60,223 nt of DNA from Candidatus Methanomethylicaceae archaeon (GTDB lineage Archaea > Thermoproteota > Methanomethylicia > Methanomethylicales > Methanomethylicaceae). Location of the stretch: positions 1 to 60,223 of the forward strand of contig JACTUC010000011.1 of assembly GCA_015660995.1 (NCBI GenBank), given 5' to 3'. A program made the position numbers and the translations under genes. Of this stretch, positions 18,424 through 21,057 are shown one piece after another; position 1 is the stretch's first letter, and every line of letters begins with the position of its first letter. The notes under the pieces are model-generated. The model saw nothing but the letters and a program-made list of their open reading frames with translations, was not told the DNA's origin and searched no databases.

Positions 18424-21057
18424 ATGGAAGGCAGCAGCGCTAAGCGTTCTCCCGTAGGCGCATTCCTGGCAGGGTTGATTACTGGAATCATCCTATTCTT
18501 CTTCAACTACTTCGCGATAGGCATGGTCATACTGGCCGCTGTGGCTGTCGGAGCCGTCTTCTACCTGAGACCGCGCTTCGCTTCATCGGTGCTTCTAGCA
18601 TTCTTGCTTATACCGCTCTTCTCCATCTTCCCCTCTGTTCAGCCGTTAAGCGCTCCTGTACCTATCATGGTTGTCGCATTGGCTTTCCTCGCCGTTCTGA
18701 CGCTCAACATGATCGACTGGTTCGGTTCCCTTATAGGGATCTGGCTTGGCCTTGCTTTGTATTCCCCTTACGTAATATTCCTCGTCATACCCATAATAGT
18801 GGCCCTCTCTGCCTACAGTGGCATGAAGAAGGCAGGTGTTGCAGCTGTAATCTTTTCGATCTTTGGAGCTATCTTCATGAACGCTGGCCTGATCGGCATC
18901 GCGCTGCCGCCTGAATTCCTCTTCTACACCACCTTCTTTCCGACGATCGGCACCATCTCAGGAGTCCCATTTGCCTCGGGCCTTCTGTTTTACCTCTTCG
19001 GATCCAATTGGCAGCAGTCGCTGAACGTCGGGTCTTCGGCCTTTGTTCTGAACAACACGCCGATCTATTTCCTTGCTGTGGCAGCCGTCATCATTCCAAC
19101 CTCATTCTACCTGGCAACATTCATAAGGAGGTCTCTGAACCCTGCTTTGTCGAAACTGACTGCTGCTGTCATAGGATCTGCGCTTGGTGCCCTGCTTTAC
19201 GGGACCTTCTATCCCCTCCTGATCTCCGTCGGCATCGTATTCCTCTTGGGCTTTTCCTTCACCGCCCTCAACCCGCTGTTGGGTTCCAAGCCGAAGCTTT
19301 CGGCAAGGGGGGTCTCTCAGCTGCTTAACAAGCCCGCAATTATGGAAGCTGGTAGAGCCAAAAACGGCGCAGTAATGGTCGAGCGGAACCCCTCCAAGGC
19401 CTTCAGCACCATGAGCTACTGGGATAGGGCGAAGGGTCTTGACGACGTCAAGGAAGACCTCTTCAAATCTGTTATTCTGCCCATGAACAAGCGAACAGAG
19501 GCAGAGAAGTATGGCGTAAAGCCCGTCAAGGGCATACTCCTCTACGGCCCACCGGGCACAGGCAAGACCATCTTGCTGAGAGGGCTTGCCTCAAAGCTGC
19601 CGATGACCTACGTGGAGGTGAATCCCGGCTCCCTTCTCTCAAAATGGTATGGGGAGAGCGAGCACAGAATGAAGGAGGTTGCCGAGACCGCGATACAGGA
19701 TGCCCCCTCCATATTGGCCATAGACGAGCTTGACAGCATTGGAAAGGAGAGGACTGCCTACTCCCACGACGATGTGACGCCTAGGGTTCTCAATGTCCTG
19801 CTCATGGCCATGGACAAGATCTTCCAGGGCAATGCAGATGTCATAGTGATGGCCACTACCAACAAGCCCCAGCTGCTGGACAAGGCGCTGCTGAGATCCG
19901 GGCGTTTCGATAAGATCATCTACGTCGGCCCTCCGGATGCAGAAGCTCGTGAGGAGATCTTCAGGCTCTATTTGGGGGGAAAGGGGAAGATCCTCGATGA
20001 GAGCATCGACTATCGCAGGCTCGCAGAAATGTCCGAAAGGTTCACGGGAGCGGACATAGAGAACCTTGTGAACTTGGTAATGTCCAGCGCTTTCTACAAC
20101 AAGGTGCTCGAGAACAAGGAGCAGAGGGTCGACCAGCAGGTCCTGGAGAATGCAATCAAAGCCACAAGGCCCTCGATCGATCTCTCGATGCTCGAGGAGT
20201 ACGATCTCTTCCGACTCGAGTTCCAGAGGGACAAAAGGATAGTGAAGGGTTGGGAAGCGGGCATCCCTAGCATTACCTTCAATGACATAGGTGGCCTTGA
20301 AGATGTGAAGAGCGCACTGAAGGAGGCCTACGAGCTGCCGCTGGTGAAGGGCGACCTGCTGCAGAAGCTGAACGTCCAGCCGATCAAGGGCATACTTCTC
20401 TATGGCCCGCCGGGCAACGGCAAGACTCTTCTCGCCAAAGCTGTTGCCAACGAAGTCTCCGCGAACTTCTTCACCCTTAGCGGAGCAGATATCGCCAAGA
20501 ACGGCGCCACCCAAGCAGCATCTACCGTCAAGGAGATGTTCAACCTAGCAAAGGACAACGCCCCCTCGATAATCTTCCTTGATGAGTTAGACCAATTGGC
20601 ACCTGACAGGTCGAACCCACAGGGTTCCGACTTTGTCTCAGTGACAACTGAACTTCTTGGCGAGTTGGATGGCATAAAGGACTTGAGAGGTGTTATGGTC
20701 CTTGCAGCAACCAACAGACCAGATAGCGTGGACCAAGCTCTGCTCAGGTCAAACCGGATTGAGAAGCACCTTCTCGTGCCAGCACCCAACGAATCCGCCC
20801 GAAAGCAGATCCTTGACATCTGCCTGAAGGGCGTGAATTCGAAAGATCTCTCCGTGGACGACCTTGTCAAAATGACCGATGGCTACAGCGGAGCGGAGAT
20901 AAACGAACTCGTCAATTCTGCCAAGAAAGCACTGATTGCGGAGTCCGTGGGCGGCTCAACTAGGGACTGGCTTACCATGGATGACTTCAAGACGGCCATC
21001 GATAAAAAAGAGAAGGAGACGCTACCGACCAATGGCAGCTCTCCGCGTGGCTTCTAG
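18424..21057 (+). CDS. Polytopic membrane protein fused to tandem Cdc48-like AAA+ ATPase
   Basis: The 877-residue protein has about nine to ten hydrophobic segments in residues 10-300, then a short soluble linker and two AAA+ modules. D1: Walker A G-P-P-G-T-G-K381-T, Walker B I-D434-E-L-D, sensor/SRH with L-L-R-S-G-R-F-D. D2: Walker A G-P-P-G-N-G-K667-T, Walker B L-D720-E-L-D, and a modified SRH, L-L-R-S-N-R-I-E-K. The N-domain of p97/Cdc48 is replaced by the membrane region. Hexameric unfolding or membrane-protein extraction at the cytoplasmic face is inferred from the family. Divergent from the hydrolase upstream and convergent with a double zinc-ribbon gene 15 bases downstream. Confidence 0.88.
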   Translation: MEGSSAKRSPVGAFLAGLITGIILFFFNYFAIGMVILAAVAVGAVFYLRPRFASSVLLAFLLIPLFSIFPSVQPLSAPVPIMVVALAFLAVLTLNMIDWFGSLIGIWLGLALYSPYVIFLVIPIIVALSAYSGMKKAGVAAVIFSIFGAIFMNAGLIGIALPPEFLFYTTFFPTIGTISGVPFASGLLFYLFGSNWQQSLNVGSSAFVLNNTPIYFLAVAAVIIPTSFYLATFIRRSLNPALSKLTAAVIGSALGALLYGTFYPLLISVGIVFLLGFSFTALNPLLGSKPKLSARGVSQLLNKPAIMEAGRAKNGAVMVERNPSKAFSTMSYWDRAKGLDDVKEDLFKSVILPMNKRTEAEKYGVKPVKGILLYGPPGTGKTILLRGLASKLPMTYVEVNPGSLLSKWYGESEHRMKEVAETAIQDAPSILAIDELDSIGKERTAYSHDDVTPRVLNVLLMAMDKIFQGNADVIVMATTNKPQLLDKALLRSGRFDKIIYVGPPDAEAREEIFRLYLGGKGKILDESIDYRRLAEMSERFTGADIENLVNLVMSSAFYNKVLENKEQRVDQQVLENAIKATRPSIDLSMLEEYDLFRLEFQRDKRIVKGWEAGIPSITFNDIGGLEDVKSALKEAYELPLVKGDLLQKLNVQPIKGILLYGPPGNGKTLLAKAVANEVSANFFTLSGADIAKNGATQAASTVKEMFNLAKDNAPSIIFLDELDQLAPDRSNPQGSDFVSVTTELLGELDGIKDLRGVMVLAATNRPDSVDQALLRSNRIEKHLLVPAPNESARKQILDICLKGVNSKDLSVDDLVKMTDGYSGAEINELVNSAKKALIAESVGGSTRDWLTMDDFKTAIDKKEKETLPTNGSSPRGF

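Follow-up and report, generated by a model that had tools for sequence, protein, structure and literature searches.

A polytopic membrane domain joined to two AAA+ modules in one protein of Methanomethylicaceae and other archaea

A Candidatus Methanomethylicaceae archaeon encodes a membrane-integral protein in which a polytopic membrane domain is followed by two AAA+ modules, D1 and D2, in the same chain. Membrane-bound AAA+ unfoldases are known already; what is new here is a clade of polytopic tandem-AAA proteins with an unmatched membrane domain. We consider it somewhat probable (about 0.55) that the protein is a membrane-integral unfoldase or dislocase that draws proteins of the membrane or envelope into the cytosol. 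A survey of 2016 reported that, among the members of the Cdc48 family, archaea have only Cdc48/VAT, and the one transmembrane region that it mentions is C-terminal, in the plant Spaf-like proteins (PMC5070193). No description of a membrane tandem-AAA clade was found in the open-access literature searched, and one may exist elsewhere.

Results

The window, that is the whole stretch of DNA analysed (60,223 nucleotides of contig JACTUC010000011.1), belongs to an archaeal genome of 1.63 Mb and 98% completeness. Its close relatives by name are Ca. Methanomethylicus oleisabuli, which is placed in Ca. Methanomethylicaceae, Thermoproteota, and Ca. Methanosuratincola subterraneus. Positions 18424..21057 form one intact ORF on the + strand, the strand of all features given below for this protein, running from ATG to stop with no internal stop and encoding 877 aa; the single ORF described by a sequence-only reading is thus exact in coordinates and frame, and it has orthologues. 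Pfam AAA matches the protein twice (total E 9e-75), with P-loops at residues 375-382 and 661-668, which bears out the two complete AAA+ modules of that reading.

The membrane domain was delimited at residues 10-286 (18451..19281) from AF2 secondary structure and charge pattern. Indeed, the first ~290 residues are long hydrophobic helices, predicted at 10-26, 32-48, 50-67, 79-111, 117-132, 134-156, 204-235, 240-259 and 262-282. Since helix 79-111 is long enough for one or two spans, the number of transmembrane segments is 8-10; the polytopic character previously claimed (9-10 segments, residues 10-300) therefore stands, with a wider span count and a C-terminal limit near residue 286. Lysine and arginine occur between residues 1 and 291 in five clusters only (7/8, 49/51, 135/136, 235/236/244 and 289/291), and the stretches 52-134 and 137-234 have none. 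The orthologues share these clusters, with at most two additional K/R in the 157-206 loop; in the window protein, the loop at about residues 157-204 is free of K/R and predicted to be extracytoplasmic. Given that this spacing is of the positive-inside type with an even number of spans, both ends of the protein, and both AAA rings, are predicted to be cytosolic. Helix and charge patterns thus point to membrane insertion of the N-terminal segments.

In no branch of the family did Pfam match the membrane domain over cut-off (residues 1-315 of the window protein included), and the PDB gave no sequence match. Its AF2 model, built from a 6-row alignment, is poor (pLDDT 50, pTM 0.33) and gave no PDB structural match at E<=0.001. 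Residues D98-W99 (18715..18720) are invariant in 8/8 Methanomethylicaceae members, and DW is also found at the aligned position in Vulcanisaeta and Thermoplasmatota members. Profile comparisons of the domain reached 96.5% (E 1e-9) for Vulcanisaeta against Thermoplasmatota, 98.3% (E 2.6e-14) for the f52 group against Thermoplasmatota and 94.3% (E 1.1e-7) for Methanomethylicaceae against the pooled others. In the last of these comparisons, 22 control polytopic ORFs reached <=1.2%. By profile, the domain therefore looks homologous across all groups, with support weakest for Methanomethylicaceae.

The first AAA module, D1, covers residues 331-600 (19414..20223; Pfam, predicted structure and tree), with a Walker A motif GPPGTGKT (375-382; 19546..19569), a double-aromatic pore loop 1 KWYGESE (407-413; 19642..19662) and an intact Walker B D434-E435 (19723..19728). 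The second, D2, covers residues 612-860 (20257..21003; Pfam and predicted structure). Its Walker A GPPGNGKT (661-668; 20404..20427) and Walker B D720-E721 (20581..20586) are intact, and the pore-loop-1 position, KNGATQAA (692-699; 20497..20520), is without aromatics. Among the members tabulated, a double-aromatic pore loop (KWYG/KYYG) is present in D1 in 26/26 and in D2 in none, and Walker A/B of D2 are kept in most. The membrane-proximal D1 ring is therefore the probable gripper of substrate, judging from these motifs. In Msp1, both pore-loop aromatics are needed and their positions, W187/Y188, match the two aromatics of D1; the double-aromatic loop is common to Msp1 and Cdc48, both of which draw proteins out of membranes (PMC7018516). 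Soluble archaeal Cdc48 has such loops too, so that the loop does not single out membrane work. One ordinary Cdc48, a 1826-aa ORF of Aenigmatarchaeota (L082), apparently contains two inteins, one of them beside the D1 pore loop. The D1 Walker B, DE in the window protein, is ND in 7/7 full-length orthologues (L019, L020 and L021-L025), so that most of the family, the window protein excepted, may have a D1 with impaired hydrolysis.

The seven full-length orthologues (868-882 aa), together with one contig-end fragment, come from genera g2 and g3 of Methanomethylicaceae, the window being from g1; genera g4-g7 and the rest of the class yielded no orthologue. The order membrane domain-D1-D2 is kept in 7/7, hence in eight genomes of the family counting that of the window. 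The window protein and the orthologues are 60-62% identical over D1 and 53-60% over D2, against ~30-33% over the membrane domain. A scan for D1 relatives revealed two further membrane-tandem proteins. The family has a common D1 signature, K-aromatic-aromatic-GE.E, then 35 residues, then DDV.PR, the latter being DDVTPR in the window protein (449-454; 19768..19785; from D1 comparison). When it was searched as a DNA pattern, with reversed-pattern controls at 0 throughout, 50 genomes carried it: 25/398 sampled Thermoproteota genomes and 25/341 Thermoplasmatota genomes, with 0/247 in Halobacteriota and 0/228 in Asgard archaea.

Inspection of 17 Thermoproteota and 20 Thermoplasmatota signature loci showed a polytopic N-terminal region encoded at all of them, except where the ORF is cut by a frameshift or contig end; the missing parts of the frameshifted ORFs (L154, L157 and L158) are present in other frames. 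Some loci encode D1 without D2 (L146, L147 and L192-L198), and D2 is degenerate in L151. One carrier group, which includes the single-contig genome G114, is inferred to be Vulcanisaeta. The membrane-then-AAA layout is shared by homologues in Vulcanisaeta, other Thermoproteota and Thermoplasmatota, and the full membrane-D1-D2 order was found in Methanomethylicaceae, Vulcanisaeta and Thermoplasmatota.

In a maximum-likelihood tree of 58 AAA modules comprising the membrane family, Cdc48 D1/D2, PAN and CdvC, the D1 modules of the membrane family formed a single clade (bootstrap 100, SH-aLRT 98) apart from Cdc48 D1, Cdc48 D2, PAN and CdvC, and its D2 modules fell outside the Cdc48 D1 and D2 clades. 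The window D1 grouped with Vulcanisaeta D1 (99/97) and the window D2 with Vulcanisaeta D2 (99/98). By sequence, the nearest relative of D1 among solved Cdc48/VAT/p97 structures is their D2, not their D1. The curated CDC48 model (TIGR01243, cut-off 802.65 bits) gave 432 bits for the window protein and 518-541 for its tandem homologues, and no membrane-family protein tested reached the cut-off. A derived Cdc48 is rejected by the tree together with this cut-off. Thus, the resemblance to Cdc48/p97 noted in the sequence-only reading holds for the two tandem AAA modules and not for descent, with D1 in its own clade and 432 bits against a cut-off of 803; the idea of a membrane region put in place of the Cdc48 N-domain is not upheld, as D1 is separate from both Cdc48 D1 and D2 (100/98).

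Like Cdc48/p97/VAT, which match its AAA part best in sequence and in fold, the window protein has two classic AAA modules in tandem; unlike them, it has a polytopic membrane domain instead of a double-psi/alpha-beta N-domain and lacks an aromatic pore loop in D2. With FtsH it shares a membrane-anchored, cytosol-facing classic AAA, but it has two AAA modules, 8-10 helices against ~2 in FtsH, and no M41 domain. Its score against the FtsH model (TIGR01241, cut-off 600) was 357 bits, from the AAA part only, Peptidase_M41 was not found among the 25 of 34 Pfam matches listed, and D2 (to ~866) ends the chain. The distinction from FtsH, with its one ATPase and protease, was therefore well drawn in the sequence-only reading. 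In archaea, LonB is the known membrane-anchored AAA+ enzyme of quality control (PMC4343526), whereas the window protein lacks the Lon S16 protease domain of LonB (TIGR00764). The TIGR00764 matches in the host genome did not include it, and an FtsH or LonB variant is rejected, the protease domain being absent.

Msp1 has one transmembrane segment and one AAA module, whereas the window protein has 8-10 helices and two modules. Msp1/ATAD1 is a membrane-bound dislocase, and the likeness to it lies in the KWYG-type double-aromatic pore loop (PMC7018516). The plant Spaf-like proteins, too, are tandem AAA proteins of the Cdc48 family that have a transmembrane region, but theirs is C-terminal and a gain of a eukaryotic lineage (PMC5070193). 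As in MoxR-VWA pairs (NorQ/NorD, Bat operons), the AAA+ gene adjoins a VWA gene in some Thermoplasmatota members; however, the AAA of the membrane family is from another group, the VWA is predicted to be extracytoplasmic, and none lies near the window gene. No HbYX-like tail of the PAN type for 20S docking was seen in the window protein, which ends in SSPRGF, or in the homologue tails checked.

In addition, the host genome has genes for two ordinary Cdc48 proteins, one PAN-type ATPase and one MIT-AAA (CdvC-like) protein. Given these ordinary Cdc48 proteins, the membrane AAA protein is an addition to Cdc48 and not a substitute. FtsH over cut-off was not found in the host genome, and LonB over cut-off was found in 0/40 genomes of the class. 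A Lon-like soluble protein of 802 aa (LonC-like) is encoded at G000:C20:63571 (L220). The review literature credits archaea with the 20S proteasome and LonB as their only ATP-dependent proteases and describes LonB as standing in for FtsH (PMC4343526). Genera g4-g7, which are without the membrane AAA protein, have no LonB over cut-off either, so that a strict or obligatory replacement of LonB is not supported.

The window gene stands alone: the upstream neighbours, encoding an MBL-fold protein and MsrA, are on the other strand, and a downstream zinc-ribbon gene is convergent. No operon link was found for it, and the neighbours differ between genera. In g2 genomes, a gene for a membrane-anchored NosL/MerB-like CxxC protein lies directly 3' of the AAA gene on the same strand (L021:10637-11299 and its equivalents in L022-L025). 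In the Methanosuratincola-type context, a JAB/JAMM protein (Prok-JAB, E 5e-10) is encoded two genes upstream and divergently (L021:5853-6230, - strand), with ORFs of similar size in relatives. Two conserved genes follow the Vulcanisaeta AAA gene (L152:6052-7808), the first of which resembles, by eye, a nuclease of the Cas4/RecB type with four clustered Cys and has no Pfam match.

In Thermoplasmatota, the gene is part of tight operons with gaps of about -10 to 47 bp (L192, L193, L197, L200, L202, L205 and L208). The upstream gene encodes a single-pass surface protein, VWA by Pfam or Ig-like by eye, the latter without a Pfam match, and the downstream gene, where seen, a small multi-TM protein of 96-155 aa. 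On the cytosolic side, the surface proteins terminate in conserved motifs of the [KR]R[IV]T[LV] or QKV[AG]VG type, possibly hooks for the AAA motor. At L191-L195, L197 and L198, the AAA protein itself carries the Ig-like ectodomain as an N-terminal fusion. Proteins encoded separately upstream in other species match this ectodomain (E 2e-6 to 4e-22). Operon and fusion links are thus evidence of joint function in Thermoplasmatota. The ectodomain profile found nothing in the genome of the window and gave weak matches (E 2e-5 to 2e-4) in four relatives, so that the partner link should not be transferred to the window protein.

Discussion

A machine working at the membrane, as supposed in the sequence-only reading, is plausible from a polytopic region and two AAA modules in one chain. 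In the mechanism that we propose, six copies would form a ring, with the polytopic domain in the membrane and two AAA rings hanging in the cytosol. An exposed segment of a protein of the membrane or envelope would be offered to D1 by the membrane domain, helped in some lineages by an extracytoplasmic adaptor; the double-aromatic pore loop of D1 would grip the segment and drag the protein from the membrane into the cytosol. D2, whose ATPase motifs are intact but which has no such loop, would power the ring or stabilise it and would not hold the substrate. Released chains might then go to soluble proteases such as PAN-20S.

This unfoldase/dislocase reading is favoured by the D1 loop, double-aromatic throughout the members tabulated as in the extractors Msp1 and Cdc48 (PMC7018516), by the conserved order of a membrane domain that looks homologous across groups with D1 and D2, and by the absence of FtsH and LonB by cut-off, the presence of PAN and the cytosolic AAA rings predicted from the positive-inside pattern. 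Against it, the ND Walker B of D1 in the orthologues should weaken hydrolysis, the pore loop is shared by soluble Cdc48, the HbYX-like tail is lacking, and g4-g7 are without both this protein and LonB. A more far-reaching version, which we put forward tentatively, is that Thermoproteota and Thermoplasmatota might have a single-chain transmembrane unfoldase, a counterpart of the ERAD retrotranslocon plus Cdc48, in which the membrane domain would offer the exit path, the membrane-proximal ring would pull, VWA/Ig-like modules (linked or fused in Thermoplasmatota) would select clients, and the FtsH/LonB gap would be filled.

The main rival is a chaperone for assembly or remodelling of envelope complexes, which in the manner of MoxR-VWA or Bcs1 would insert, activate or dismantle a complex and would not feed proteolysis. 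We regard it as rather unlikely, but it draws on the tight Thermoplasmatota operons with secreted VWA/Ig-like single-pass proteins and a small TM protein, on the fusion of the Ig-like ectodomain to the AAA protein in other species (2e-6 to 4e-22), on the NosL-like protein downstream in Methanosuratincola-type genomes, and on the AAA-VWA pair as an established assembly theme (PMC9976466). However, the AAA domains belong to the classic Cdc48/PAN-like group and not to MoxR, and the window genome has no conserved operon of this kind and no hit to the ectodomain profile. Signalling or mechanosensing, with extracytoplasmic and membrane domains that sense the envelope and gate AAA rings acting on cytosolic clients, seems improbable: large ectodomains exist in several Thermoplasmatota members and D2 is variable and lost in some, but the window protein and the other tabulated Thermoproteota members have no large ectodomain, and the probable gripping ring is on the membrane side. 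Still less credit can be given to an ATP-driven transporter of small molecules or lipids with AAA rings replacing ABC domains: the 8-10 helices without recognised fold would suit it, but no transporter matched in Pfam or the PDB and a conserved peptide-gripping pore loop would serve no purpose. Finally, an error of assembly, or a membrane gene fused by chance to a Cdc48 gene, has next to no probability: nothing was found in its favour, and the same fused order recurs in the orthologues and, across two phyla, in distant homologues from many independent genomes, among them the complete single-contig one taken as Vulcanisaeta.

To conclude, the unfoldase/dislocase reading bears on how these archaea may handle proteins at their membrane. 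Archaea are described as having no FtsH and as depending there on LonB for quality control driven by ATP (PMC4343526), and the host of our protein has neither by curated cut-off; it nonetheless encodes a membrane-integral tandem AAA+ motor. A homologue of 882 aa appears to be encoded by Vulcanisaeta distributa, which is in culture, so that biochemical work is within reach. Should the membrane domain prove to conduct proteins, a single chain would be doing the work of several ERAD components.
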